Virus record (IMG/VR): IMGVR_UViG_3300017779_000235
Location: 1 to 20,111 of that record
Direction: 5' to 3' (one strand)
Length of the DNA stretch: 20,111 nucleotides
From: a virus
Shown: piece by piece, positions 2,537 to 20,111 of the stretch
Position numbering within the stretch: position 1 is the stretch's first letter
How the letters are laid out: each line of letters opens with the position of its first letter
Program-made: the position numbers and the translations under genes
The notes under the pieces: generated by a model
What the model saw: only the letters and a program-made list of their open reading frames with translations
Told to the model about the DNA's origin: nothing
The model's database searches: none

Positions 2537-3862
2537 ATGACAGCAAGTGCAAGTGACACTATATTTCTACAACGAGACATAAAAGTCTACGTTGCGAAAA
2601 AAGATGTAGATATGGGGTATGAAATTCCAACTTTAGAAGGTATTTCATTTTCTCAAGCAATAAATAATGCTACAATAACATTAAATGAAGCAAGTCCTGA
2701 TGGTACTACTCAGCGCAGGGGTTCGGCTGCTTTTGCAGAGTCTCTTGCTCCTGCAGAGTGGTCTTTTCAAACTTACTTAAGACCTACAAAATCAGCTAGT
2801 GCAAATGGTACTTATACTAATGGGGATCGAGATGATACTGCAACTCATGGAGCAGTTGAAGAGTTTCTTTGGGCAGCATTAGCAGGTGACTTAGGCACAG
2901 CTACAATGCCTTCAGCTTCTGCGGATAAAGCTTTAACTGCCTGGAGTTTTGGTACTACAGATGGTGTTTTAGATTTTGATAGCTCAAACAAACTACAGCT
3001 CGGTAAATTTGATTTATTATTTGCCTTAGCAGGCGATGGAAGTGGTGTAGGCGATGATAAAAATATAATTTATCATTTGGATGAAGCAGTTGTAAACGAA
3101 GTAACTATTGATTTTGATATTGATGGCATTGCTACTTGTAGCTGGAGCGGCTTCGCCAAGAAAATCTATGAAGTAAATGATGGAGCTAGAGATGCAAACT
3201 CTAGCAGCACAGCAGGTTGGTTTGATAATATTAGTGCTGCTAATGTAATTACTCCTGGATCTAAGACAATTACAGAAGGAAATACTTCTACTAGTAACTT
3301 TATTCAAAATAGGTTAAGTGAAGTAACTATTGCTAATAGTCATGATCCAAACACTAATTATTCTGCTGCCTATACTCTTACTTTAACGGGTGGAAGTATT
3401 ACAGTTAGTAATAATATTTCATATGTTACTCCTTCTATGATGCAAACAGTAAATCAGCCTCTTGGTCATATTACAGGATCAAGAACTGTTTCAGGTAATT
3501 TAACTTGTTATGCAGATAATACTGCAGATCGTAGTATGGATCTTTTTGAAGATTTACAAGAAGCAAGTGTGTATGATGATACAAATATTTTTGAGTTACG
3601 TGTGTATTTAGGTGGCAAAAATGCTACAAATCTACCAAACGCTCCTGGGTGTATGTTTGTTATGCCAGCAGCACACTTAGATATTCCTACTCATAATATT
3701 GGGGATGTGGTTAGTTTTGATATAGGTTTCACAGCATTAGCAAGTAATGCAACTCATACTATCGCCACAACTACAGCAGCATTTGCTCTCAGTGCAGATG
3801 CAACAGCTACAAATTCATTAACTGGTACTAATGAACTATTTGTAGTAATGGCAGGTTTATAA
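2537..3862 (+). CDS. Major tail tube protein, T5 pb6-like
   Basis: Main structural subunit of the tail tube. At 441 residues it is about twice a lambda-type tube protein and close to T5 pb6 (464), which carries two tube domains and builds trimeric rings that mimic hexamers. From memory several blocks align with pb6: residues 35-80 (LEGISFSQ, TLNEASP, RRGSAAF, then L-A-P-A-E-W-S-F) against the pb6 block with N-E-A-G-P and L-N-A-A-E-W-S-F; and residues 285-325 (GGSITVSNNISYVTPSMM) against GGTFTINNNITYLTPNVM. Both tube copies are visible, at about 35-205 and 255-402. The C-terminal Ig-like domain of T5 pb6 is absent; only about 40 A/T-rich residues remain. The ATG has AGGAG seven bases upstream. 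The gene has its own leader and a strong terminator behind it, fitting a high-copy product. Confidence 0.88.
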   Translation: MTASASDTIFLQRDIKVYVAKKDVDMGYEIPTLEGISFSQAINNATITLNEASPDGTTQRRGSAAFAESLAPAEWSFQTYLRPTKSASANGTYTNGDRDDTATHGAVEEFLWAALAGDLGTATMPSASADKALTAWSFGTTDGVLDFDSSNKLQLGKFDLLFALAGDGSGVGDDKNIIYHLDEAVVNEVTIDFDIDGIATCSWSGFAKKIYEVNDGARDANSSSTAGWFDNISAANVITPGSKTITEGNTSTSNFIQNRLSEVTIANSHDPNTNYSAAYTLTLTGGSITVSNNISYVTPSMMQTVNQPLGHITGSRTVSGNLTCYADNTADRSMDLFEDLQEASVYDDTNIFELRVYLGGKNATNLPNAPGCMFVMPAAHLDIPTHNIGDVVSFDIGFTALASNATHTIATTTAAFALSADATATNSLTGTNELFVVMAGL

Positions 3863-3875
3863 TATTTAGTAACTT

Positions 3876-3900
3876 AAAAAGGGGCTTCGGCCCCTTTTTT
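3876..3900 (+). terminator. Strong rho-independent terminator after the tube gene
   Basis: GGGGC (3881-3885), a TTCG tetraloop and GCCCC (3890-3894) form a perfect GC stem with the especially stable UUCG loop. A run of five A before it and six T after it extend the stem and supply the U-tract. The A run on the far side means it could also work on the minus strand. It lies 13 bases after the tube stop codon and just before a new promoter, so it separates two transcription units. Confidence 0.95.
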
Positions 3901-3918
3901 ACATCGCAAAAAAAGTTC

Positions 3919-3956
3919 TTGACATTTTCCTCAATTTAAAATATACTATCTAGTAT
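3919..3956 (+). promoter_or_regulatory. Sigma-70-type promoter for chaperone, tape measure and tip genes
   Basis: TTGACA (3919-3924, perfect -35) and TATACT (3942-3947, five of six -10 matches) are separated by the ideal 17 bases, with an A-run just upstream (3907-3914) like an UP element. Transcription should start near 3953-3955, leaving a leader of about 40 bases before the ATG at 3993. The dyad ATACTA-TC-TAGTAT (3943-3956) covers the -10 and the start site and could be an operator. Position directly after a terminator and before a gene makes a chance match unlikely. Confidence 0.88.
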
Positions 3957-3992
3957 TAAATTATTAACTACAACTTAAATAAAGGTCCAAAT

Positions 3993-4415
3993 ATGAGTGA
4001 CACTCCAGTATCGTTAGCAACATTAATTACCCCAAGTAAAACAGTTACACTTGATTTTCCAGGGTATAAAGGTCTAAATATAGATCTCTGCTACTTAGGC
4101 AGAGAAGAGCTTCTAAAGTTACGCAAGAAGTGTGTAACAACAAAGTTCAATAAAAAAACACATCAGCCTGAAGAAGAGCTGAATGACGAAAAGTTTTTAG
4201 AAGAGTACTGTAAGGCAGTAATAAAAGGATGGGCAGGCTTTAAATATTCTTACCTAGAAGAGCTTCTTTTGGTGGATGTATCTAGTTTTGACCCTGATGA
4301 TGTGCTTCCTTATACTCAAGATAATGCAGAGACATTGATGAAAAATTCCAATGGCTTTGATACTTGGGTATCTGAGACAGTAGGAGATTTGGAAAATTTT
4401 ACTACGCGCAGGTAG
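3993..4415 (+). CDS. Tail assembly chaperone, short form (lambda gpG-like)
   Basis: Normal-frame product of the tail chaperone gene pair. In lambda, gpG and the frameshifted gpGT coat the tape measure protein and recruit tube subunits, and neither stays in the finished tail. This 140-residue acidic protein shows no catalytic motif; its identity rests on its place between tube and tape measure genes, its size (lambda gpG has 140) and the slippery site just before its stop. The start is ATG 3993, with AAAGG at 3981-3985. Distinctive segments are GREELLKLRKKC and WAGFKYSYLEELL. It is the first gene after the promoter at 3919-3947. Confidence 0.88.
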   Translation: MSDTPVSLATLITPSKTVTLDFPGYKGLNIDLCYLGREELLKLRKKCVTTKFNKKTHQPEEELNDEKFLEEYCKAVIKGWAGFKYSYLEELLLVDVSSFDPDDVLPYTQDNAETLMKNSNGFDTWVSETVGDLENFTTRR

Positions 4416-4831
4416 AGCGCATTACAGATCTACTTGAGCGTTCTGTAGCCCAACAGGATGCAAATATAGACGTAGAGAAGTACTTGCGTATATGTGAGCT
4501 ACAAAACCAAGAACCTGATCCTGAAAAGATGCCGGTGAGCCCCTCAATGTTTCCAGAGGAGGTTCAGTCGGCATTTTTTATTTATAACCTTTTAGAGGAT
4601 AATTGGGATGGAACATCTGGAAGTTATATGGGTAAAGTCTACTCTAGTGTAGAATTTTTATTTAAGTTATATGAAATAGATAACCAGCCAGCAGTTTTAT
4701 TATTCTTAAAAATTTATGATAGTTTAGTGGTTAGTTTTAGATCTAACAAAGCAGAAGCAAAGAGAAAAGCAGCAGAGAGAAAGTCTTCTGCAGGAAGCGG
4801 CAAACAATACGCTCATAATGTAAAACTATAA
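3993..4831 (+). CDS. Tail assembly chaperone, -1 frameshift product (lambda gpGT-like)
   Basis: Fusion made when ribosomes slip back one base at A AAT TTT (4394-4400): 136 residues from the 3993 frame, then 143 from the -1 frame, 279 in all. Immediately after the slip the second frame reads YYAQVERITDLLERSVAQQ, an in-frame continuation with no start codon. The T-like part continues with EVQSAFFIYNLLEDNWDG and a basic end (K-A-E-A-K-R-K-A-A-E-R-K). By analogy with lambda, the G part binds the tape measure protein and the T part recruits tube subunits. The stop overlaps the tape measure start as TAATG (4829-4833). The -1 frame also contains a TTG at 4484, but it lacks a convincing ribosome binding site and would drop the conserved first 28 residues after the slip, so I do not call it as a separate gene. 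Confidence 0.85.
4394..4400 (+). promoter_or_regulatory. Programmed -1 ribosomal frameshift site AAATTTT
   Basis: The heptamer reads A AAT TTT in the normal frame, a true X-XXY-YYZ slippery site, five codons upstream of the TAG at 4413. After slipping, reading resumes at 4400 as TAC TAC GCG CAG and stays open to 4831. A four-base GCGC stem (4406-4409 with 4417-4420, seven-base loop) follows at six bases and could act as a weak stimulator. Confidence 0.88.
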
Positions 4832-7800: not shown

Positions 7801-8202
7801 ATGAGTCCTGCAATGAATCAACCAACCCCCTTATTTCAAAGATATGGTGGAATGACAGAGCGTATTCCAGGCTACCGAAACGGTAAGATGCCAGGTATGT
7901 ACTCTGAAGGCGGAATCGCAAAAGGGCGTCAAGCAGGCTATCCTGCTATACTTCATGGCACTGAAGCAGTTGTACCACTACCGAATGGTAACAAGATTCC
8001 CGTAGAAATGAAAGGCGGTGGTGGAGACCAAAATAATATAGTAATTAATGTTTCTTCCGAGGGTAATACATCCGCTGGAGGAACCGGCTCTAGTGTTTCT
8101 CAACAGAAAGAAGTAGGTAAAGCACTAGCTGCCGCAGTTCAAAAAGAATTAATAAAACAAAAACGACCTGGTGGCATACTCAGCCCATATGGAGCAAGAT
8201 AA
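4831..8202 (+). CDS. Tail tape measure protein (lambda gpH-like role)
   Basis: Sets tail length by running inside the tube, and usually leaves with the DNA at infection. Its 1,123 residues, at the rule-of-thumb 0.15 nm per residue, predict a tail near 165-170 nm. The basic, polar N-terminus (1-65) is followed by a conserved early module with QLFAVSAAFNFLKRAGD (81-97), AASGLSPEQ-type helices and RLVRGTTKAEPELLDELG (177-194). Hydrophobic segments at about 284-309 and 465-495 are candidate membrane-inserting parts. Long charged, probably coiled-coil stretches cover about 500-910. The end has ALEGALGNAFLAMIDG, then glycine-rich GGIAKG and LHGTEAVVPLPNG, a motif common at tape measure C-termini. 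I see no HExxH, lysozyme or NlpC motif. The start overlaps the chaperone stop (TAATG) without a clear ribosome binding site, suggesting coupled translation. Confidence 0.93.
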   Translation: MAKNKVKIDVTVDDKGTTKKVGVGAKNAADNLDKVGKGAHNADRQLKGAAQASSNTTKNFSKMSQGISGGLVPAYATLAAQLFAVSAAFNFLKRAGDIVTLQRGQEAFAATTGTAMRALAKDIIAATDAQIGFQEASQAAAIGIASGLSPEQLTRLGTAAKQTAAILGRDVTDAFNRLVRGTTKAEPELLDELGIILRLDKATGDYADKIGKHKNELSAFERTQAVTNDVLAQAEEKFGKIEAAVGLTVNPFNQLGKAFDDIIIQIQEFTAAVAGPLAKVLTDFPILVGGAFAFFSKGILTAAIPGVAAFGDNLKKVAKEGVKDLGALQAQSLAANRALAAGLADPEAAAAMGQAARSQLQGSMKNVGITGGVFKIAEGDGPIGNAALGKMKSQLQKMYGDASDISDKALDGMISNIDDLVFENKIGMGKVTASVTSMQQKGSLKFAKLKTDAQLAFASIGQKGAAAFSMLGRAMNMLGIAAMAVSFGLMAFNFIKSKMAGDKLTSTLDIQARKMELLKDKVKSLSQEFANFNIIQGVLGRDRGTSAAGAVGNRLSSLSESDVRLGLRAETPGSSEIKDFNKGRNRFLAAQRDLAPNESGLGLVMKELYRLQNAGALNPKDTMHGEFLRLQAEYKELLTKVQEGRAERDADALYGRGLVASMGADPASVTAQLIDEQKGITDAMRNASTHVAAYDKELNELLASETALTDNQIESIASKRALAAADLVRIGQVQRLNTEADKQLTSINKTLFAQSKYATSIASVNSAIEASTKAGETLNEQEREKLELYQRMLPILKELEAVEKRRALEDATAKVTGAEMQQRGRGSRGGQNLFASGRKESARLFNLDQAELQRTRTQENIATLQGQIDSGSLGKQQIEDAKHQIKLKRQSIELQDIAIQKLKDEGNLMLQFGLQTADALEGALGNAFLAMIDGSKSASEAMKDFAKNVLASMAQIAANQLAAQILTGIGGLFTSGAPANAVIDSQTGAIMSPAMNQPTPLFQRYGGMTERIPGYRNGKMPGMYSEGGIAKGRQAGYPAILHGTEAVVPLPNGNKIPVEMKGGGGDQNNIVINVSSEGNTSAGGTGSSVSQQKEVGKALAAAVQKELIKQKRPGGILSPYGAR

Positions 8203-8594
8203 TGGCTATAGGATTCACAGATTTAAATGGTACTCAACGAATTCCAGATAAAGGATTGACAGTAAATAATCAACCAAATGTTTTAGTAGCAAAATTTGGA
8301 GACGGGTACGAACAAAGAGTAGAAAATGGAATAAATAGTTTAAATCAAGCCTTGAATGTAAACTTCCAAGATAGAGAAAAAGCAGAGGCAGATGCAATAA
8401 CTTCTTTTTTCGAAAGTAAAGCAGGAGTTGAGTCTTTTGAGCTTACTATTCCTTATGGAGGAGATGGAACACCTGGTACAGAAAGTACTACAGAAAGAAT
8501 AATTAAAGTCGTTTGTGGAAGCTGGTCTACAGTTTATTCGTATGATGATTTTTATACTGTAAACGCAAGTTTTAGAAGAGTGTATGAGGCCTAA
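8202..8594 (+). CDS. Minor tail protein M-like (tail tip)
   Basis: Small tail tip protein of the lambda gpM family (Phage_min_tail), thought to sit where the tube meets the tip. The 130 residues compare with 109 for lambda gpM. Residues 29-39 (VAKFGDGYEQR) are the family hallmark, followed by N-G-I-N, a strand-helix segment around A-D-A-I-T-S-F-F-E-S-K-A-G-V-E-S-F, and a closing W-S-T-V-Y, then FRRVYEA. The start overlaps the tape measure stop (TAATG) with GGAG at 8191-8194. Its place between the tape measure and L genes matches lambda order H-M-L. Confidence 0.9.
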   Translation: MAIGFTDLNGTQRIPDKGLTVNNQPNVLVAKFGDGYEQRVENGINSLNQALNVNFQDREKAEADAITSFFESKAGVESFELTIPYGGDGTPGTESTTERIIKVVCGSWSTVYSYDDFYTVNASFRRVYEA

Positions 8595-8596
8595 GT

Positions 8597-11062
8597 ATGG
8601 AAAATCATGATAATGCCATACTAAATACTCAAAAATTAGCTGTAAAAAAGCTTATTATATTATTTGAGATACGTTTAAGAAATGGAGTAAAGTATTTTTT
8701 AACTCCTTACAATGATACGGATTCAACTAATATTACTATAGGAGATAGAGTATATAGAGCGATTCCTATGCAAATGGAAGATCTTTCTTTCGAAGTTCAA
8801 TCTTCTCCTCCCAGACCTATTTTAAGTATTTCTAATGTAGTAGACTTTGCAGATGAGTCAACTACAGGAACAGATTTTTACTCAGACATTATTAATGCAA
8901 AATTAGTTAGGCGAACAGTGTTTAGTAGGCATATAGAAAAATTCAATAGTGATGGCACAGAAGCAACAGATTTTAATATAGAAAATACTTTAATTCAGTT
9001 ACCAAAACAAGCTTTTGTAATTGATAGAGTTGCAAATAAAACTCCCATTGTAATTTCTTTAGAGTTAAGTAGTGCTTTTGATTTAGATAAGGTTAAACTG
9101 CCTGGTAGAGTTATTTCAGGAGGATTCTGTCCTTTCGTCTATAAAGGCGCGTCTTCATATTTAGCTCCAGAAGATAAACTAAATGGTTGTACTTGGAATT
9201 CCAAACAGTATGTAACTACCAATGAAAATAAATACGGAACAGGAGTAGCGACTTCTGTTCCTGTTTACATGAATATTCAAGATGAGTATATTGTTCAAGA
9301 AGGAGATCATTTTACAGAAATTCAAGAAGGCATAGACGGAGAGCCTTTAATAGAAGTAACAGAAGGAGCTTATGAAGAACAAGATATACTAAAAAATAGA
9401 TACTACAAAACAGAAGCATTAAATTTACAGTGTATAAAAGCGAATGCTGTTATAGAAACAGTTACTGGATATGACTATTGGCAAGCTTTAACAGATATTC
9501 TTTCTAGTGAAGGCATAAATTTTTTACATTTTCCTTCTGATAACTCCGCTTTTTGGAGGCGTGTTAGAGTTTGGTCATACTATGACTCGTCAAAAGATTT
9601 TAAAGCTTATACCGATAAAAATAGAAATGAGTATGCGTATCTTTTGCCTTTTCCAAAAACAACAGTACTTGCCACAGAAACTTTCGGAACTACTACTGTA
9701 ACTTTAGATAATGGGGATGGAACTACCACCACATTAAGACAAGCAGATATAAGTTCTTTTATAACAGATGAATCTATAATAGGGACTCTTAGTATAGAAG
9801 ATGAAAATAATGCAGGCTTGAGAAGAATATTAAATAATTCTGTATATACATCTAATTTAGCGGGAGGTTTATCCAGAACAGATGAGTATTTACTAACTAT
9901 AAATAGAAATGGGGGGAACTTAGAAGTTTTAGTTTTTACTCTATCAACTACTTCTACTATAAAAGCTAATTCTTTACTTTTTGAAGGCGTAAATAGAAAT
10001 GCTTACGATGCTATATTAGATAACGAAGGCTTGTGGCAGATATCTAAAATTACTCAGGAAGCGGAAAAACACTTTACTATACCACAAGCAAATAGTATCT
10101 GGAAAGTAGGAGATGTTTGTGCAAAAGCTTTAACTTCTTGTGCTTTAAGATTTCAAGCTACTACTCATCAATATGATACTGACTCTCTGCCCAATGTTAG
10201 GAGAGAAAAGTATGAAGCAGTAGCAGGAATTAGTGAAGTACCGATAGGTGAGTTTACTGACCCTTCAACTATACCTTTCCTTTCTGCAAGTGTTGGGGGC
10301 TCCTCGGGAGATAGATATCTAGAGTTATCTGAAAATGACTGGCTAAATATTCCAGATAGAACTGGATATGTTATAGCTTATTTTCCAAACGTAAATGATC
10401 CTACTCTTTTTAGACTAAAAAATGAAGACCCTACTTTTGGTATGGACAGCGAGCTTTCTGTAAACCGTTACGTTCCTATATATAATATATCTAGTAACTC
10501 TGGAGATATAAGATTAAAAAATACTGTATCCTTTACTCATGCTAATTTAATACTACGCGACTTTTTTGGTTCAAAGCTAGATGACAGTCCATTAGTTTCT
10601 CCTTTGACAGGAATAGGTGCAGATCCCACTGATAATTATAAGCTGGAGCCAGTTTTACTAGCGTATGATAAAGGAGCTAATACTGTACCACAAACCGAAA
10701 CTCGCGTTAGATTTTACAGAATACCTGATATTGTATTATCAGTATTAGAACCTACTTTTAATTACCCTTCCCCAGAAACTATAATAACCGAAGGAGAGCA
10801 AATAGAAATAAGATCAGGCGTAGCCAATACCTTATCTTATATCTTGAATAATGATGTAAAAGATATTACTGATACTACCGTTGTAGCAACCGCTGGTACA
10901 GAGTATGCTAGAGTAGATGGAGATCCAACTGCTGAGTTTTTCTTAGATTTTGCTACTCCTAATAACGGTAGAACAGGAAGAAGCCTATACATAGCTACTG
11001 ATAGAACCTCTAGTAACCCTTTACCTTTCGGTGGGTTTCCAGGAACACGAAGGTATAATTAA
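8597..11062 (+). CDS. Minor tail protein L-like, with two large insertions
   Basis: Tail tip protein of the lambda gpL family, whose C-terminal domain binds an iron-sulfur cluster through four cysteines. Lambda gpL has 232 residues; this one has 821. Residues 1-175 follow the family: two strands around LFEIRLRNGVKYFLTP, then YRAIPMQMEDLSFEVQSS, PPRPILSISNV and a K-L-V-R-R block. Cysteines C178 (FCPFVYKG) and C198 (NGCTW) form the first pair. C508 and C515 (GDVCAKALTSCALRF) form the second, some 310 residues later. The family's closing motif LPFGGFPG comes only at 809-816, about 290 residues after the second pair. Two insertions (about 200-503 and 520-805) thus split the module; both are threonine- and asparagine-rich and look like beta-structure. 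C279 is an extra cysteine. GAGG at 8586-8589 supports the start. A fusion with an unknown partner is less likely, because family motifs flank both insertions. Confidence 0.8.
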   Translation: MENHDNAILNTQKLAVKKLIILFEIRLRNGVKYFLTPYNDTDSTNITIGDRVYRAIPMQMEDLSFEVQSSPPRPILSISNVVDFADESTTGTDFYSDIINAKLVRRTVFSRHIEKFNSDGTEATDFNIENTLIQLPKQAFVIDRVANKTPIVISLELSSAFDLDKVKLPGRVISGGFCPFVYKGASSYLAPEDKLNGCTWNSKQYVTTNENKYGTGVATSVPVYMNIQDEYIVQEGDHFTEIQEGIDGEPLIEVTEGAYEEQDILKNRYYKTEALNLQCIKANAVIETVTGYDYWQALTDILSSEGINFLHFPSDNSAFWRRVRVWSYYDSSKDFKAYTDKNRNEYAYLLPFPKTTVLATETFGTTTVTLDNGDGTTTTLRQADISSFITDESIIGTLSIEDENNAGLRRILNNSVYTSNLAGGLSRTDEYLLTINRNGGNLEVLVFTLSTTSTIKANSLLFEGVNRNAYDAILDNEGLWQISKITQEAEKHFTIPQANSIWKVGDVCAKALTSCALRFQATTHQYDTDSLPNVRREKYEAVAGISEVPIGEFTDPSTIPFLSASVGGSSGDRYLELSENDWLNIPDRTGYVIAYFPNVNDPTLFRLKNEDPTFGMDSELSVNRYVPIYNISSNSGDIRLKNTVSFTHANLILRDFFGSKLDDSPLVSPLTGIGADPTDNYKLEPVLLAYDKGANTVPQTETRVRFYRIPDIVLSVLEPTFNYPSPETIITEGEQIEIRSGVANTLSYILNNDVKDITDTTVVATAGTEYARVDGDPTAEFFLDFATPNNGRTGRSLYIATDRTSSNPLPFGGFPGTRRYN

Positions 11063-11751
11063 TGGAAGAAGAAATACTAGAATACTTAGAGTCAAAATAC
11101 CCTGAAGAAGGGTGTGGAATAATATTAAATAAAAAAGGAAAGCTGGTATGGATTCCTTGCGAAAATGTAGCAGAAGATCCTATTTCAACTTTTAAGATTA
11201 ATCCAAAAGACTATGTAAAAGCTTCTATAACAGGAGATATATACGCAATAGTACATAGTCATGTAAACGGTAAATGTAGAGCTAGTGAGTTTGATAAAAG
11301 TCAAAGTGATCATCTACAAGTACCGTACCACATTTATACTATACCAGAAAGAGAAAAATGTGTGTATACACCAGAGTATAAAAATATTCAGCTACTAGGT
11401 AGAGTATATGAATTCGGAAAAACAGATTGCTGGACTTTAGTACGAGACTACTACTTAGAAAACTTTAAAATAGTACTACCTATGTTAGAATTTGAAGCAA
11501 AGTTTTACGATAAAGGAATTAACTATTTTGAAGATTTAATTGAGCCTTGGGGAGGCGTAGAAGTTTCTACCCCTAAAAAAGGGGATATAATATATTTTCA
11601 AATAGCAAATGAGATTCCAAATCATTGCGGGGTTTTTCTAGACAATGACACATTTATACATCATCAATCAGGAAGACTATCCTGCAGAGACTTTTTACCT
11701 AAATGGCAAAAGTACATTAAGAGTTATATAAGATGCAAAAAGTTTATTTAA
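11062..11751 (+). CDS. Tail tip K-like protein: JAB/MPN plus NlpC/P60 hydrolase domains
   Basis: Two-domain tail protein of the lambda gpK type, needed for tip assembly and presumed to cut peptidoglycan or tail components. The N-terminal JAB/MPN domain has a complete JAMM metal site: glutamate at 15 or 16 (P-E-E-G-C-G), H65-S-H67, then seven residues to S75 and two to D78. The C-terminal NlpC/P60 domain has the catalytic cysteine C123 in GKTDCWTLVRDYY, histidine H188 in N-H-C-G-V-F, and H200 or H201 as the likely third residue. Length (229) is close to lambda gpK. All catalytic positions look intact. There is no signal peptide, as expected for a virion protein. The start overlaps the L stop (TAATG), with AAGG at 11050-11053, and its end overlaps the next gene by 19 bases. 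Confidence 0.92.
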   Translation: MEEEILEYLESKYPEEGCGIILNKKGKLVWIPCENVAEDPISTFKINPKDYVKASITGDIYAIVHSHVNGKCRASEFDKSQSDHLQVPYHIYTIPEREKCVYTPEYKNIQLLGRVYEFGKTDCWTLVRDYYLENFKIVLPMLEFEAKFYDKGINYFEDLIEPWGGVEVSTPKKGDIIYFQIANEIPNHCGVFLDNDTFIHHQSGRLSCRDFLPKWQKYIKSYIRCKKFI

Positions 11752-12461
11752 ACGGACCAATCTCTAAATTTGGAAAAGAATGGAATACATCAGTATCCAA
11801 TGTTGGAGAAGTATTTAAGCTTATATCTTGTCAGTCCCCTGGATTTGACGAGTATATAGTTAATATGCTTCAAAGCAAGACGAATAGTTTGGAAGTCGTA
11901 AAAGGGTCGGAACTTTTAGTAGATGCAGAAGATGTATTTCTTCCTATAGAGGAAGATGATTTAATTATAACTGAAATTCCTTATGGTGCAGGCGATAACC
12001 CTCTTGAAACTATTCTTATTGGTATAACTCTTTTTGTTGCACCTTATGCATATGCTGCTTATACCACCGCTGCTGTTGCTGGAACGGCAGGCATGCTGGG
12101 CGCTTCAATTTCAGCAGGCTTTGGAGCAGCATTTACTGGAACATTTGCTATTGGAGGGATGGGTGCTATACTTAGTAGTATTGGCCTAAGCTTGATGATA
12201 AATAGTGTAATAAGCTTATTTACTTCTGGTCCGGAAACTGATGCAATAAGTGGCGATATGGAAGCAGAAAAAGCAAAAATGTTTGCAGGTCCCGAAACAG
12301 TATCTAAACAAGGTATTCCTGTTCCCGTTCTATATGGAGAACTAGCAGTTGGTGGCGCAAACATAAATGGAGGATTTCACGTACTTCCTGCAGAAGAAAT
12401 AGTATTCGAACAACATTTCAAGGACAGTCTAGGAGCTAGCCTTACCAATAATGGTGGGTAA
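11733..12461 (+). CDS. Tail assembly protein I-like
   Basis: Homologue of lambda gpI, required for tail tip assembly and acting with J; its molecular role is poorly known and it may not stay in the virion. The 242 residues (223 in lambda) show the usual three parts: a ubiquitin-like N-terminal region (about 1-82, with VYLNGPISKFG and an E-V-F-K-L-I strand), a long glycine/alanine-rich hydrophobic stretch (92-165) that could insert into or cross a membrane, and a C-terminal block QGIPVPVLYGELAVGGANIN (193-212), the family hallmark. The ATG lies inside the K gene, overlapping it by 19 bases, with only a weak ribosome binding site, so translation is probably coupled to K. Confidence 0.88.
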   Translation: MQKVYLNGPISKFGKEWNTSVSNVGEVFKLISCQSPGFDEYIVNMLQSKTNSLEVVKGSELLVDAEDVFLPIEEDDLIITEIPYGAGDNPLETILIGITLFVAPYAYAAYTTAAVAGTAGMLGASISAGFGAAFTGTFAIGGMGAILSSIGLSLMINSVISLFTSGPETDAISGDMEAEKAKMFAGPETVSKQGIPVPVLYGELAVGGANINGGFHVLPAEEIVFEQHFKDSLGASLTNNGG

Positions 12462-12475
12462 AGAGGAATTATTAA

Positions 12476-15400
12476 ATGAGTAGAGTAATTAATCAAAAAG
12501 GTGTGGTATTTGATGCACTATCTGTGGGCCCAATCGAGGGTTTGGTAGAGGGTGCAAAATCTATTTATTTAGATAATACTCCTTTAACAAGTAGAGACTA
12601 TACTAATGCAGTAGGTATTCCTACTGTGATTGAGACTACAGCTAAATGTGAGCGAGGCTCTAATCAAGTGAAAGTTCCTATAGTTGCAGTAAGAGAGTTA
12701 ATAGATACAGAAACAAAATTAACAATAAGTGACCCCGCTACAGAAACAATAGGAGATATCCTAACGCCTAAGCTACGATATTTATGGATAGAAAAAGCAG
12801 GTAAAGACTACCCCGGCTTTGCAATGGCTAGTAATGGTTTTGAAATTGGATTTACAGGCGATGGTTCAGGAGGTTTTTATAAGGGATATGACTTTCATAA
12901 AGATGTAGTATATCGTAGATATTCTGCGCATAACAAGATAGAAGCAGAAACTACAAAATGGATGGAAACTCCTATTCGTGGTGAGGATGGATGGGCTCAC
13001 GAAAGCGATCGAAACGATTTATTTTTTACAGCTACAATAGATGGAATAGAAAACTATAGAACTTATTTGGTAGGTAGAAGTGTAGACCCTCATTATACAA
13101 GAAGACGAGATGATTCTAGTTATGAGAATCCTGCTAAATATTTTGAAAATAAAGCAGACTGGGCATCTCATTGGTCAATGGTTAAAGCTAATCATTGGAA
13201 AGACTCTAATAAGTACTACCAAACTTGGCATTATTTTGCGAACCCTATTGTTGAATGGCCTTTTGAAAAAGCTTACCGCCGCGGACTTCAGTATGACAAC
13301 CCTGCAAAGGGTTCTACTTCCTGGGATTCTTATAAATGGATTACTCATCAGGTAACTGGCTGGCATGGTGCAACTTTAAGATGGGATGTTTTAGCGGAAA
13401 TAACTAATATTATACCAGATCCCGCTGATCCTACTAATCAAGCAATTGTAACTATATTACCAAAAGATCCTAGCCTACATCAAGTATACGCTACTAGTAC
13501 AAATCTAAAAGCAAAAATAGTTACCTCAAAAGTAGTGCAAAATACTGCGACTAACTTCAAAGGAGACTGGGATATTAGACATGGCTTATTAGATCAATCT
13601 TCTATGGATCTAGATAACTTTGAAAATCCTTCAACTAATCTAGTTGTAGGCCCTGGACAAGCATTATATTGGCACACTACTGGAGGGGGCAAATCTAGTT
13701 CGAGTTTCTATGGCGCTGTTGGAAATAGTGGAACTAGTATGGGTCTAACTGACGTACAAGTAAAAGAAGTAGATACTGTAAAGTTGACAATAGTATTGCC
13801 AAATGGTTTATTTTTTGCTAATGATAAAGCTGAAACAAAAAAAGCTGTTGCAGAGTTCGCGATATATGTACACACTCGAACCGGTAGACCTGGATCAGAT
13901 TATCAACCTAATTTAGTTGTAGGGCGTTTAGACAATACGATCTCATATAGAATTACTCCTAATCATTGGAAGGGTGGAGGAAGTAGAAATAGTGCTGATA
14001 CACGTTTGATGGATAAAACCGACGGTAGCAACTATTATCTCGAGCTAGATAAAAAGTATGATAGTTCAGTAATGGAGTCTAAATATGGAGTTATTATAGC
14101 AAAAACTAAAGGCACTTTTGCAAAAGAGTTTGAAATTGATCTAACACCTTATAGACCCTTTACCGATTTTTTAATAGAGGTTAGAAGAATAACTCCTGAC
14201 CAACACCCTGATTATAATACTCATAAAAAAGATGCTAGTAATATTGAGGGTGCGACTAATCCCACACAAAAAACTAGGTTTGAAGGAACAGCAATTCTAA
14301 GCACAATAGAATCTCAGATTCACGATAAATTTACATATCCTTTGACCGCATATGCAGGACTATCTTTTTCAGGTGCGGAATTTGAAAGAATTCCACAAAG
14401 AACGTATCATTTACGAGGTTTAAAAGTAAAAGTTCCTTCTAACTACACCACAAGAGAAGAGGATTTAGCTAGAGGAGGTCAAGGAGTTGCTTCTTACAGC
14501 AGAACAATAGAAAGAGACGCACATAATCCAAAAGAAGCATACCCAAGCTATTCGGTAGCTTCTACGAATATTCTTAGATTTACTACAGATGTAACGGGTC
14601 CGATACGCAGAGGAACCTGGAGCACCTCTATTGGCGACACAGTTGCAAATACAGGAATTGATATTTATCAATGCGGGGCTTCCAATCATTCAGGGATGCC
14701 TAACCTAGAGTCTACAAATGGACAACTGCCGTACATTAAGCTAATTCAATCGGTAGACAGACATACTATTACTGCTGGACCAACCCACTCTCAACATTTA
14801 CTACTAAGAGTTGCTAGAATAATAAAAGGTAATGTAATAGAGATAGACGATATAGAAAGTATTTCTGTAACAGGAACTACTAATAATAGAACCATAACAA
14901 TTGATTTTAATGATAACCCAGACGTTACAATAAATCCATTTACTAACCAAAAAGATATTATAGACGGAATAGAAACAGATTATTGGGAAATAAAAAAGCT
15001 AGGAACACAGGGAGACTTTGACGATAATGCAATATTTATAGAAGGAGAAAATAGATACGACATAGAAATAACATTTAAACATAATTTATTCAATCTTCCT
15101 TATGCTCCTTGGGATGGGTCTCTTAGAGGTGATGATAATTTTCCTCGTAGCCATCCTAACTATAAAAAAGTATACACAAATAATCCAGCATGGATATACT
15201 ATGATATACTTACAAATAAAGAAATAGGATTAGGACAATGGATAAGTGAAAGTGATGTAGATAAGTTTGAGCTTTATCAAATTGCACGATATTGTGATGA
15301 GCTAGTGCCAGACGGTCAAGGAGGTTTAGAAGCTAGGTTTACTCTTAATACTTATATAACTAAAGCAACTGAAGCATTTAAATTATTAAAAGATTTATGT

Positions 15401-18400
15401 TCTGCTTTTAGAGCTATGGCTATGTATAGTAATGGATTAATTACTGCTGTACAAGACCGACCAAAAAATCCTGTATTTCTATTCACACAAGCTAATGTTA
15501 TAAATGGAGCATTTACATATGAGTATACAGGAACACGAGCTAGGGCTAACTCCGTTTTAGTAACTTGGAATGATCCTGCCCAAAAATTCGCTCAAGATGT
15601 TGTAGCTATAGATGATAATGAGGCTATTCTACAAATAGGTAGAGTTATACCTAAGGAAGTTCTTGCCTATGGATGTACTTCTAAAGGTCAGGCTATGAGA
15701 TTAGGAAGGTATCATTTACTCTCTGAAAAACTTGAAAATGAAGTAATTACTTTTGAAACTGGAGTTAATGCTTCTCATTTACAAATTGGTGACATAATTA
15801 AAGTACAAGATCAACAAGCCGGTGCTAAAGTTAAAAATGCAGGCAGGCTTAAATTTTCAAACGGATGGAGACAATTTCAATTAGATAGAGACGTTGATTT
15901 ATCCACTGTAGTAGAAGGAGATGATAAGTGGAAGTTTCATATTCAGGTTCCTACAAGAGGTATATTTTTACAGCAAGACAAAGCAGTAATTAATGGAAAA
16001 ACTCTTAAAAGAGGTGACTTAATAGTTGAAAATAAAGACGGTATAGCAATAGAAGACTTACCCGGATCTATAAACCCTAATACATTTGAACAAAAAGAAA
16101 CATATGAAAGTATTGATATTTACAATTTAGTAGATGATGCAGGAAATATGTTATCTACTCAACTTGCAAATTATGCAAAAGTAGATACTTTTGATATTGA
16201 TGTTCAACATTCTTATACACAAAAAGGTCCTCAATATATTCAAACAGTAGAACCTAGAGAAGATAAACATGATAAAAATATTGACTTAACTGAATGTATA
16301 TGGACAATAACAAAAGAAGCTGGAAACGTATATAATGAAACTGCTTGCAAAGAGTATAAACTAATTAGTATCTCACACAATGAAGGAGGTATGGTTACTA
16401 TTGGGGCAGCACTATATAAAGAAGAAAAATTTGATGAAATAGAAGCAACTATAAGCTCCTATCAAGATCCAATTAGAGCGTATAACTCTTCTGGCTATGT
16501 TGTTAGAGAGTTAGGTAAAATTAGTGGAGCAGGTACTTCAGGAGGGAGTAATTTTGATCAAGCATCCGTTAATATTCCTATACCCAATATACAAAGCATT
16601 ACTGCAGAGCCCGCAGATGATCTAAACTCTATTATAATTTCATGGTCTCCAAATTCAGCTCAAAGACTAAACGAGGTAGGTGATATTGTTGGAGGTAGCA
16701 CGTCTAATATAAATGGGTATAGAATAAGACATAATTTTACTCCAAATTCTGCAAATGCGGATGCAAATGGATATGTATATGAAGAAGTGGTTGGCGGCGC
16801 TGTCAATACTTTTACTCTTTCAGTTCCTGGAGGCTATGAAGAAGGTACGTACACAATAAATATTCAAGCATATTATCAAGTTCCAGGAGAAGATAAAATT
16901 TTCGGGGCTAGTCTTAATACTCAAAAAGTATTAAAAGATCTAACTAAACAGTTAGGAAGGGGATTAGTTCCTTCAGGAGGAAATCTGGACTCGCCAACCG
17001 ATTTTAATACTGGGTCTGGTATTTTTAAAATTATAACGGATAATACTTATGAGTACACTCATCCAAACGGAGACGTATATAAATCTGGTGCACCGGCCAC
17101 GACTTTAGAAACTACCGAGAGTTTTTCTTCTATGAGTAACAGCACGAGTGCGTATCTGTATTTCGATAAAGCAGGATCCGAACTAGCAACTCCCCATCCT
17201 TTGAAAGCTCTCACAGAAACAACAGATGTAGAAGCAACACTTAAAAATTCGGGGGGTCCTATGAATTTTACCTATTTAATGCCTGTAGGATCTTCTACAA
17301 GAGGTTTAGCTACTTTAACTAACCTAACTGGTACTGGAAAAATACAAAACTCCCCCGGAAGCAGTAGTGCTCACGAAATAAAAAATAATACAGGAAGTAT
17401 AAAAAAAGGAATGATAGTCACAGGATCAGGGATAGTAGGTACAGTTACTCTAGTAAAAGATTCTACTAATGTATCTCCTGGTGTGCAACTAATAGAATTA
17501 AGTAGTGCTCAAAATTTAAGTAATGATACTGTTTTAACTTTTACGGGTACTGCTAAATTTTCAGCAGCAATAGACTCAGATATTGTAACAGGAACTAATA
17601 CTAAATTTACTGAAGATTTTTCAGCTGGAGACATGATAAAGCTTACAGAAAGTCTGGCTATAACTTCAACAGGGTCTTTAAGTGAGTATGGAACTGTTCA
17701 AACTGTATTAAGTAATACCAAATTGAGACTAGAAGATAAAATTTCTAGAGATTATGGCATTTCTTCAGGGTCTGAAGGGTTGAGCTATAATACGCCTCAA
17801 AAGCAACAAACAATTGATTGGAGAAATATATATGATCCCCAGGATTCAGGCGCAGATCTAATTGACTTTAATACTCTTATTTTTATAACTGGAGTTTCTC
17901 CTACAAGTAACAATAGAGCCTCAATTGTTAGTATAACTAAAGCTAATCCTGCAGTTATTACTTTTAGTAGTGTAGCTGGACAAAGTATGAACTTTAGTAG
18001 TTATAGATCTGATACCTTATTACCTTTTTACTTTTTTGCAGTAGAAGGAATGACAGATCTTAATTCAGATATGGTTTGGCTACACCCTACAGGATCTAAT
18101 ACAGCTGAAATTTACACCTCAAACATTAAACATAACGATAATAGATTAGACTCAAGCAGTTTTGCAACACATACGGGAAATACTGGAATAGCGCATGCTT
18201 ACGTATACTCTGCATACATTGACCTTAATGTTTTATTTGGGACCTATGGAGCTCACGTGGCTCAAATTACAGACTTTGGTACTACTAGACTGGGTACATA
18301 CCAAGCCGAACTAAACCCTGGTCCTCAGTACAAAGAACAACAAATTCCTCCACTTGGCCACCCAAGTGGAGGAGTATATGATGTGGGCAATAGCTATGGA

Positions 18401-20111
18401 GCTCAAAATACAGAGGATATAAACTCTTTTTCAGCTAATATTACCAAGCAAGAAATTGAAAATGTATCAGGACGACTACAGCTTACTTTTCAATCTGGAG
18501 GCATTTTAACAACTACGATAACTAGTGCAGGTAGTAATCTATGTAATGGTCTTAGCGGGGAGGTAGAGGTATACCCAAAATTTATTCAGAATTCCAGTGG
18601 AGTTAAAAAGAATCTACAAGATTTTGCACATTATGGAAGAAGTAGCTCTCTTAGAGGACAACTTGATCAGCCTGCGTTACGTCTAACTATTACTAGCGGG
18701 GAAGTAACAAATGTTGATATTATAAATCCTGGTAGGGGTATGATAGTTACGGATAAAATGTCAGAATTTGATGGCTGGGACCAAGCATTCAGACTAATAG
18801 ATAATGGTAGTGGTAACCCTGTGGTCGACTACTTTTTTGATGATAATGTTGCAGGTGATTGGGTTCTTGCCGGTAATTATACTGAACCCGTAATTACTAT
18901 TGCAACTACGCAAGGTTTTGATGGAATTCTTGAATCGGTTAAGGTACAGCAGGCTTATGATAACTCTTCTGTGGATGATATTATACAAGCAACTATTGTA
19001 GAGTCTACCGTTTATAGCGGTAGTGGCGGTAATACTGTATCTAATACCGCGGGCGAGTATAAAGATACTAAATCAGTAACAGGGCATTTTTCTTTCAAAA
19101 TAACAGAAGTAACAGAGGTTGAAGGAACAGCTTTAGCTTATCAACAAGAGCAAAAAGTAAATAATATAGAAGATGCTATACTAGCTGAGGTGACAAAAGA
19201 TAGTTCAGGAGTTCACAGTATTAACTATTTTTGTACTAAAGCCAGCTTAGATACCGGTGATGGTGGCTCAATTGTAGAGTCTGCTAACACTGAAGTTACA
19301 GGAGCAGTAGTCTATGATAAGCGCCGAGCTAGAGGAGAAATAGCACGAATCTCCATGCCTAATACTAGAGGTATAAGTGCAACTCCTACTGCACGTGCAG
19401 AAATTTCGGGGTTGCTTGGATATCAAGGACCAGATATACAAATCACTGAAGTTACTTCAGGTGATACTGCTGTTTTTACTACTGCTTCTGCGCACGGCCT
19501 AATAACTGATGATATTGTAGCAATACGAGGTATTGGAGCTGGCGATGATATGAATATTATAAACGGGCAGCGAGGCTCAGTACGTCTCGGATCTTTAGGT
19601 ATTACTACTGGAGATAATGCACAGTTTTCTCATGGTACATTAGGAAGTATGAATGCTTCTAAATATAGTTCTGCTACACCTGCCGCAAATACTCAAGTAA
19701 CTGGCTGTACAATTACACAAGGCGGTAGCGTTTTCCCTGGTAGAGATGCAACTTGCACAGTTACTACCTCTTCGGATGGAAGCAGTATTCATATCGATAG
19801 TGTTACTGCAGCAGGGTCGGGTTATATAGTAAATCTTACTTGTTACATAGCTGTAACAATAAGCGATACTACTCATACTTTTATTACTACTTTGCAAAGT
19901 GGAAAAATAATTACAAATGATACAACTACAAAATTTAGATTAGAAACAGATCGAACTGTATTCTCTTATGGAGGATATTTTGGAGGTATAGTACTCAATT
20001 ATGTAGGTGGAGGATCTACTGCTACAGCCCTTACTTCTCAAACCACAGTCTTTGCAAATATACAGAATCCCATGACAGTTGAAATGCAAATAAATGCAAC
20101 ATTCATTCCTC
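12476..20111 (+). CDS. Central tail fibre / host specificity protein J-like (3' end outside window)
   Basis: Central tip protein of the lambda gpJ type; its C-terminus normally contacts the host receptor. The frame is open from ATG 12476 (AGAGGA at 12462-12467) to the window end: 2,545 residues without a stop, against 1,132 in lambda. Landmarks: the N-terminal hub motif GPIEGLVEGAKSIYLD (18-33); a tryptophan-rich repeat (216-303); a hub segment around 619-660 ending in RGLKVKVPSNY; the best-conserved core, 903-1034, from NPAWIYYDIL through YCDELVPDGQGG and AFRAMAMYSNG to VLVTWNDP; a fibronectin-III-like domain (about 1375-1470, SIIISWSPN to INIQAYYQV); a VTGTNTKFTEDFSAGD fibre motif (1702-1720); and a long beta-rich region after 1500 with glycine-rich GxGY-type repeats from about 2000 and a TTASAHGLITDDIVAI motif near 2335-2350. 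The domain assignments are from motif memory; the receptor-binding end is not in this window. Confidence 0.9.
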   Translation, partial: MSRVINQKGVVFDALSVGPIEGLVEGAKSIYLDNTPLTSRDYTNAVGIPTVIETTAKCERGSNQVKVPIVAVRELIDTETKLTISDPATETIGDILTPKLRYLWIEKAGKDYPGFAMASNGFEIGFTGDGSGGFYKGYDFHKDVVYRRYSAHNKIEAETTKWMETPIRGEDGWAHESDRNDLFFTATIDGIENYRTYLVGRSVDPHYTRRRDDSSYENPAKYFENKADWASHWSMVKANHWKDSNKYYQTWHYFANPIVEWPFEKAYRRGLQYDNPAKGSTSWDSYKWITHQVTGWHGATLRWDVLAEITNIIPDPADPTNQAIVTILPKDPSLHQVYATSTNLKAKIVTSKVVQNTATNFKGDWDIRHGLLDQSSMDLDNFENPSTNLVVGPGQALYWHTTGGGKSSSSFYGAVGNSGTSMGLTDVQVKEVDTVKLTIVLPNGLFFANDKAETKKAVAEFAIYVHTRTGRPGSDYQPNLVVGRLDNTISYRITPNHWKGGGSRNSADTRLMDKTDGSNYYLELDKKYDSSVMESKYGVIIAKTKGTFAKEFEIDLTPYRPFTDFLIEVRRITPDQHPDYNTHKKDASNIEGATNPTQKTRFEGTAILSTIESQIHDKFTYPLTAYAGLSFSGAEFERIPQRTYHLRGLKVKVPSNYTTREEDLARGGQGVASYSRTIERDAHNPKEAYPSYSVASTNILRFTTDVTGPIRRGTWSTSIGDTVANTGIDIYQCGASNHSGMPNLESTNGQLPYIKLIQSVDRHTITAGPTHSQHLLLRVARIIKGNVIEIDDIESISVTGTTNNRTITIDFNDNPDVTINPFTNQKDIIDGIETDYWEIKKLGTQGDFDDNAIFIEGENRYDIEITFKHNLFNLPYAPWDGSLRGDDNFPRSHPNYKKVYTNNPAWIYYDILTNKEIGLGQWISESDVDKFELYQIARYCDELVPDGQGGLEARFTLNTYITKATEAFKLLKDLCSAFRAMAMYSNGLITAVQDRPKNPVFLFTQANVINGAFTYEYTGTRARANSVLVTWNDPAQKFAQDVVAIDDNEAILQIGRVIPKEVLAYGCTSKGQAMRLGRYHLLSEKLENEVITFETGVNASHLQIGDIIKVQDQQAGAKVKNAGRLKFSNGWRQFQLDRDVDLSTVVEGDDKWKFHIQVPTRGIFLQQDKAVINGKTLKRGDLIVENKDGIAIEDLPGSINPNTFEQKETYESIDIYNLVDDAGNMLSTQLANYAKVDTFDIDVQHSYTQKGPQYIQTVEPREDKHDKNIDLTECIWTITKEAGNVYNETACKEYKLISISHNEGGMVTIGAALYKEEKFDEIEATISSYQDPIRAYNSSGYVVRELGKISGAGTSGGSNFDQASVNIPIPNIQSITAEPADDLNSIIISWSPNSAQRLNEVGDIVGGSTSNINGYRIRHNFTPNSANADANGYVYEEVVGGAVNTFTLSVPGGYEEGTYTINIQAYYQVPGEDKIFGASLNTQKVLKDLTKQLGRGLVPSGGNLDSPTDFNTGSGIFKIITDNTYEYTHPNGDVYKSGAPATTLETTESFSSMSNSTSAYLYFDKAGSELATPHPLKALTETTDVEATLKNSGGPMNFTYLMPVGSSTRGLATLTNLTGTGKIQNSPGSSSAHEIKNNTGSIKKGMIVTGSGIVGTVTLVKDSTNVSPGVQLIELSSAQNLSNDTVLTFTGTAKFSAAIDSDIVTGTNTKFTEDFSAGDMIKLTESLAITSTGSLSEYGTVQTVLSNTKLRLEDKISRDYGISSGSEGLSYNTPQKQQTIDWRNIYDPQDSGADLIDFNTLIFITGVSPTSNNRASIVSITKANPAVITFSSVAGQSMNFSSYRSDTLLPFYFFAVEGMTDLNSDMVWLHPTGSNTAEIYTSNIKHNDNRLDSSSFATHTGNTGIAHAYVYSAYIDLNVLFGTYGAHVAQITDFGTTRLGTYQAELNPGPQYKEQQIPPLGHPSGGVYDVGNSYGAQNTEDINSFSANITKQEIENVSGRLQLTFQSGGILTTTITSAGSNLCNGLSGEVEVYPKFIQNSSGVKKNLQDFAHYGRSSSLRGQLDQPALRLTITSGEVTNVDIINPGRGMIVTDKMSEFDGWDQAFRLIDNGSGNPVVDYFFDDNVAGDWVLAGNYTEPVITIATTQGFDGILESVKVQQAYDNSSVDDIIQATIVESTVYSGSGGNTVSNTAGEYKDTKSVTGHFSFKITEVTEVEGTALAYQQEQKVNNIEDAILAEVTKDSSGVHSINYFCTKASLDTGDGGSIVESANTEVTGAVVYDKRRARGEIARISMPNTRGISATPTARAEISGLLGYQGPDIQITEVTSGDTAVFTTASAHGLITDDIVAIRGIGAGDDMNIINGQRGSVRLGSLGITTGDNAQFSHGTLGSMNASKYSSATPAANTQVTGCTITQGGSVFPGRDATCTVTTSSDGSSIHIDSVTAAGSGYIVNLTCYIAVTISDTTHTFITTLQSGKIITNDTTTKFRLETDRTVFSYGGYFGGIVLNYVGGGSTATALTSQTTVFANIQNPMTVEMQINATFIP
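13121..13384 (+). repeat. Tryptophan-rich imperfect repeat within the J protein
   Basis: Codes for J residues 216-303. Nine tryptophans fall in the 75 residues 229-303. Two copies of a pattern are visible: YENPAK then W229, W233 and W241; and YDNPAK (273-278) then W283, W288 and W296. A weaker third unit, YFANPIVEW (253-261), lies between them. The DNA of the copies has diverged, so the repeat is seen at the protein level. It lies between the N-terminal hub motif and the conserved core, where lambda J has, as far as I recall, nothing similar. Confidence 0.6.
18346..18373. repeat. Perfect 12-bp inverted repeat with 4-base loop inside J gene
   Basis: TCCTCCACTTGG (18346-18357), loop CCAC, and CCAAGTGGAGGA (18362-18373) are exact reverse complements. 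The arms are far richer in G+C than the surrounding sequence. It is translated in frame as P-P-L-G-H-P-S-G-G. No T-run follows, so it is not a normal terminator. It lies between the fibronectin-like part and the glycine-rich beta-repeat region of J. Confidence 0.9.
18480..19865 (+). repeat. Degenerate glycine-rich beta-repeats in distal J region
   Basis: This part of J repeats a loose pattern of a beta-strand, a G- or D-G turn, a strand, then a glycine-rich turn. Examples are SGGILTTTITSAGSNL (near residues 2005-2022), SGEVTNVDIINPGRGM (near 2075-2090), DGILESVKVQQAY (near 2150) and SVTAAGSGYIVNL (near 2445). I recall similar G-x-G-Y repeats in long phage tail fibres. The copies are weak matches, so both number and borders are approximate. 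Confidence 0.4.

Follow-up and report, generated by a model that had tools for sequence, protein, structure and literature searches.

Comparative analysis places two large insertions within the conserved cysteine module of a gpL-family phage tail-tip protein

On a 20,111-base viral record, which we analysed along its whole length (the window), we found an 821-residue gpL-family tail protein whose conserved core is interrupted at two insertion sites, with a further insert nested inside the first and with inserts that diverge fast. The phage is uncultured, the closest relatives of the record are metagenome contigs, and the record is probably a genome fragment. We hold with high confidence that the architecture is that of a conserved core with insertions. 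Taking the explanation as a whole, we consider it rather probable that this hub core keeps its iron-sulfur cluster and carries replaceable contact modules that face outward. The features are collected in Table 1.

Table 1. Coordinates of the gpL-family gene, its segments and its neighbours in the window
Feature	Coordinates	Strand	Evidence
gpM-like distal tail protein	8202..8594	+	PF05939 E 3e-21
gpL-family hub protein, two-site insertion form, 821 aa	8597..11062	+	intact ORF; PF05100 E 6e-15; phrog_18 E 1e-26
Predicted N-terminal HDI attachment domain, residues 1-165	8597..9091	+	AF2 model fold match to hubs
First half of Fe-S module (C178, C198), residues 166-200	9092..9196	+	91/91 Cys; 51% identity to L002/L003
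Insert 1 family-typical part, 5' portion, residues 201-350, likely distant CBM5/12-like	9197..9646	+	hhalign to relatives' standard inserts
Nested insert 1b, residues 351-478	9647..10030	+	absent in most relatives; gap in L006 matches
Insert 1 family-typical part, 3' portion, residues 479-503, ending at W502	10031..10105	+	W502 invariance, occupancy
Second half of Fe-S module (GDVC508-x6-C515-ALRF), residues 504-522	10106..10162	+	74-79% identity to L002/L003
Insert 2, no known family, residues 523-795	10163..10981	+	C4-LPFG gap 293 vs median 27
C-terminal segment with LPFGGFPG, residues 796-821	10982..11059	+	58-69% identity to L002/L003
gpK-like JAB and NlpC/P60 protein	11062..11751	+	PF14464, PF00877
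gpI-like tail assembly protein	11733..12461	+	phrog_32 E 1.5e-27
gpJ-like central fibre protein, running past window end, enlarged before core	12476..20110	+	phrog_31 E 4e-116

The gene for this protein (hereafter L) lies between those for gpM and gpK, in the lambda-like order M-L-K-I-J. Pfam Phage_tail_L (PF05100) covers L residues 36-185 at 55.5 bits, against a gathering score of 25, and lambda gpL (8iyk_L) is its sole relevant match among PDB sequences; matches to acetylcholine-receptor and IL-5-receptor PDB sequences had E-values at chance level and were rejected. The NCBIfam model TIGR01600 (phage_tail_L) reached 63.3 bits in a match limited to residues 11-186, which falls below the equivalog cut-off of 70.75, and on this score L is not assigned to that equivalog. 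A Pfam search gave no match in L to the GTA-type hub family PF09931 at E<=1.

Other parts of the window complete the picture of the tail. A gpG/gpGT-like tail assembly chaperone pair occupies 3993-4831, with a slippery A AAT TTT (4394-4400, zero frame) close to the end of the first ORF and a -1 frame that runs on to 4831, an arrangement that suggests the usual programmed -1 frameshift. The major tail protein (2537-3862) is of the phrog_3575 or T5-like kind, about 30% identical to the protein of Vibrio T5-like phages, and beside a lambda-like tip it makes the tail a mosaic. Both tip proteins, L and J, are enlarged, the gpJ core beginning at residue 896. Additionally, a 497-residue ORF at 533-2026, with a head-tail adaptor on one side and the tail terminator on the other, has no meaningful Pfam or PHROG match.

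The loci of relatives were gathered through their neighbouring gpM and gpK genes, a route that imposes no selection for inserts in L, and later also through an L alignment; a direct scan with the window L returned no pattern matches in viral contigs and none that was confirmed in genome contigs. The alignment used here (A4) holds 91 non-redundant L proteins, namely the window and 90 relatives, which are designated below by L numbers. The window protein has cysteines at 178, 198, 279, 508 and 515, and its LPFGGFPG motif begins at residue 809. The columns of C178, C198, C508 and C515 are cysteine in all 91 proteins, the next best cysteine column reaching 27 of 91; W502, K510 and R518 are invariant as well. 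With the ORF intact, these counts confirm the two cysteine pairs and the closing motif that a sequence-only reading of this DNA had pointed out, and they show that the landmarks do not follow one another by accident. The fifth cysteine, C279, which that reading did not list, is not conserved.

The spacing around these fixed positions varies widely. If the four cysteines are numbered C1 to C4, then among the 91 proteins C1 and C2 are separated by 8-114 residues (median 19) and C2 and C3 by 98-347 (median 154; window 309), while the C4-LPFG gap spans 22-330 (median 27; window 293). Between the cysteine pairs, most relatives have about 150 residues and all aligned relatives about 100 or more; the figure is about 22 for lambda, SSU5 and S-H1, and about 260, of a different sequence, for the isolate Synechococcus phage S-CBS4. 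Identity to L002 and L003 is 67-68% for gpK, 57-58% for gpM and 31-33% for L as a whole; within L, the Fe-S segments and the C-terminus are best conserved (51-79%), against 17-21% for insert 2, which bears out the proposal of one gpL fold interrupted twice as opposed to a fusion. The alignment shows a single conserved cysteine module into which each of the two spans has been inserted. The same two-site layout occurs in intact ORFs on three distinct contigs (L002, 789 aa; L003, 800 aa; L087, 886 aa), and a fourth, L165, nearly duplicates L002 but is truncated. Three other origins were excluded: an assembly chimera by this recurrence in L002, L003 and L087, an intein or intron by the absence of any such Pfam family, the intact ORF and inserts that vary at fixed sites, and a single fused domain by the gap pattern of the relatives.

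The cluster itself might be lost or dispensable in the expanded form, with the cysteine pairs working separately, for example as disulfides. Some relatives of gpL are without the cluster, as cited in PMC13243795, and the gpL-like ORF in the L position of marine virus AG-345-A17 (L186, about 3000-3992) has two cysteines only and apparently lacks the four-cysteine module. We nevertheless regard such a loss as very improbable here, given that the four cysteines persist across the alignment however long the inserts are, the second pair being accompanied by K510 and R518.

A split at the first site has clear precedents. In the RcGTA hub, an oligosaccharide-binding domain (168-249) separates the ion-binding domain into two pieces, 143-167 and 250-263 (PMC7296036), and the hub of roseophage R4C is arranged in a similar way (PMC10276861), with cysteines C147, C157, C244 and C251 and a C2-C3 gap of 86. 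Since solved structures show both hubs split there, insertion at site 1 (between C2 and C3) is already established; for insertion at site 2 (between C4 and LPFGGFPG) or for nesting, we found no report in the limited set of literature searched. RcGTA gp13 and R4C gp14 share with the window an Fe-S ('ion-binding') domain divided between C2 and C3 and have an FRGFP segment after the second cysteine pair, but their single insert is only about 80 residues long, they have nothing inserted from C4 to FRGFP, and they belong by sequence to a different hub family from the window L. Lambda gpL (PF05100; 8iyk chain L) resembles the window in its N-terminal HDI fold, four ordered cysteines, terminal FGGF and gene order, whereas it has 232 residues, a C2-C3 gap of 22, few residues from C4 to FGGF and no inserts. 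The standard long gpL of uncultured phages (L108 and L006, about 390-400 aa) has the same cysteines and a homologous site-1 insert, but it is without the nested insert 1b and its C4-LPFG loop is about 27 residues long. The layout had been called unusual, a description that fails for site 1 in view of RcGTA, R4C, S-CBS4 and all 91 aligned proteins; site 2 is rare, so that the window protein as a whole elaborates a known arrangement in an unusual way.

We built an AF2 model of the window L with a 91-row alignment. Its overall pLDDT was 60.6. Values were good across the N-terminal domain and in most of residues 221-350, but they were poor at 165-181, falling below 50 within 170-181 and to about 38 near C178, and they stayed below 50 over nearly all of insert 2. 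The modelled N-terminal domain matched lambda gpL (8iyk_L) with Z 11.9 and rmsd 3.3 over 138 residues, the R4C hub with Z 10.8 and the RcGTA hub with Z 10.2, and further fold matches were to the T1, Chi, JBD30 and T5 hubs. A model of the standard relative L108 reached pLDDT 80.1 and matched lambda gpL with Z 14.4 and rmsd 3.3 over 150 residues. In PDB fold searches with both models, convincing matches cover the N-terminal domain only, and the L N-terminus is, as modelled, an HDI hub fold.

Two inserted domains had been counted, one at each site, and this count did not survive, insert 1 (about 201-503) being itself a family-wide insert with a nested one. Matches of the window to L006 cover residues 41-347 and 477-527; the stretch that they skip, about 351-478, is read as a nested second insert (1b), with which alignment occupancy agrees. 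By sequence comparison, insert 1 is thus a composite of about 175 family-typical and about 128 nested residues. The similarity of 1b to L002 and L003 is marginal (12.8 bits, the best of 1000 shuffles giving 12.2), so that its homology to them rests on position.

The family-typical part could be followed further by profile comparison. With hhalign, comparison of the window group with the standard inserts of relatives gave E-values from 4.5e-25 to 6e-28, and reversed controls gave 0.2-0.3. Pfam CBM_5_12 (PF02839) scores above its gathering threshold within insert 1 of L047, L051, L065 and L082 and at E<=0.01 in 16 of the 91 members; it has no match in the window protein at E<=1, and no member of profile groups K and P matches it. 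Here P denotes the standard inserts and Q the CBM-bearing inserts of the sister group; the match of the window group to K/P is the one at E 4.5e-25. With flanks trimmed, P matched Q at E 9e-8 (92%; reversed 0.24) and K matched P at E 3.5e-33, the reversed controls of the trimmed comparisons lying at 0.24-0.57. Direct comparison was weak for K and Q (0.019) and reached 49% for the window and the Q inserts. Through this profile chaining only, the family-typical part is likely to be a distant CBM5/12-like tandem. Searched by tblastn in phages, residues 199-503 had no relatives. In the translations, glycine-rich repeats of the GSGYTSxPTVTI type and CBM-like repeats are visible by eye in the gpL inserts of L017, L033, L007, L014, L031 and L072.

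The profile searches of each insertion that the sequence-only reading had suggested thus led to a distant CBM5/12-like relationship for insert 1 and to no known family for insert 2, which had no match in Pfam, PHROGs, PDB sequences or, by tblastn, phages and viral contigs. Enzymatic inserts, such as glycan depolymerase or lytic domains at the tip, would fit a neighbouring gpK with NlpC/P60 and JAB domains, and tail tips often bear depolymerase or lytic activities; neither insert, however, matches any enzyme at a meaningful score in Pfam, PHROG, NCBIfam or the PDB, and we consider such a function very unlikely indeed.

Among the 91 proteins, a C4-LPFG gap above about 35 residues is found only in the window, L002, L003 and L087 (278-330 residues at site 2) and in the clade of L007, L014, L017 and L033 (102-214 residues). 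The core tree places the bearers of site-2 inserts in two separate clusters, the placement of L087 being unsure (long branch), and by profile comparison the inserts of the two lineages are unrelated. Insert 2 is rare and probably arose in two lineages. Even within its own group the sequence changes quickly: L002 and L003 are 32% identical in insert 2, the window insert gave a best blastp E of 0.22 and no hmmsearch match against theirs, and it showed no similarity to those of L087 and the L017 group. The window insert is thus without detectable similarity to L002 and L003 despite the conservation of gpK and the second Fe-S segment, which points to either exchange between phages or very fast divergence at site 2. 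A third site is filled in the clade of L020, L023, L031 and L048, where about 100-114 residues are inserted between C1 and C2, so that three loops round the presumed cluster accept insertions.

The main rival to displayed contact modules is structural enlargement, in which the inserts and an enlarged gpJ would jointly widen or lengthen the cone of the tip, spanning a thick envelope or bracing the hub. Among 112 ORFs with a gpJ core match, the window has the longest lead-in before the conserved core (896 residues) and L087 the second longest (801), compared with 264 in lambda; the L proteins of the window and L087 are likewise the longest two. The C-domain of lambda gpL and the N-region of gpJ moreover form the HDII-insertion domain together (PMC10721106). 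Structural interfaces, however, usually conserve sequence, whereas insert 2 has diverged far beyond gpK, and the two enlargements can be uncoupled, a long L occurring with an ordinary gpJ in L023 (L 797, J 605) and a short L with a long gpJ in L046 (L 333, J 746). We judge structural enlargement to be unlikely.

In lambda, gpL is present in three copies per tail tip. Under the preferred explanation of displayed modules, the window protein would be a gpL-type hub subunit whose N-terminal HDI domain would join the tail ring and whose C-terminal four-cysteine module, lying at the tip's outer face, would hold a [4Fe-4S] cluster. The cluster would still form and would staple the polypeptide between the insertions, while insert 1, with its putative CBM5/12-like tandem and nested domain, and insert 2 would project outward as replaceable arms. 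These arms may contact glycans or other structures on the host surface and so supplement the gpJ fibre. We favour outward modules because the lambda Fe-S domain has an outer location on the tail tip (PMC10721106), sister proteins carry CBM-like modules and insert divergence is extreme. An adhesion role for the inserts is somewhat favoured; against a glycan link for insert 1 stands that the window insert itself is without a CBM_5_12 match. The absence of an identifiable domain in insert 2 and the low pLDDT there and around C178 also weigh against the explanation, and the rapid divergence of the inserts may equally mean weak constraint.

What the iron-sulfur cluster does in lambda-type tail tips is not known (PMC10721106). 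That four cysteines stay invariant despite hundreds of inserted residues on either side suggests that the cluster holds the module around surface-exposed additions. The family also makes gpL a neglected place to search for host-recognition domains in uncultured phages. If the known part alone holds, the window protein is an extreme, well documented, of a theme already described. A broader idea, speculative and on present evidence improbable, is that the gpL Fe-S module serves generally as a scaffold for display. Its core, stapled by the cluster, would offer three hot spots (C1-C2, C2-C3 and C4-LPFGGFPG) that time and again take up unrelated recognition domains, nest them and exchange them. Were this true, gpL, in place of gpJ or side fibres, would rank among the main determinants of what these phages attach to, and the long-puzzling cluster would be a staple that tolerates insertions.
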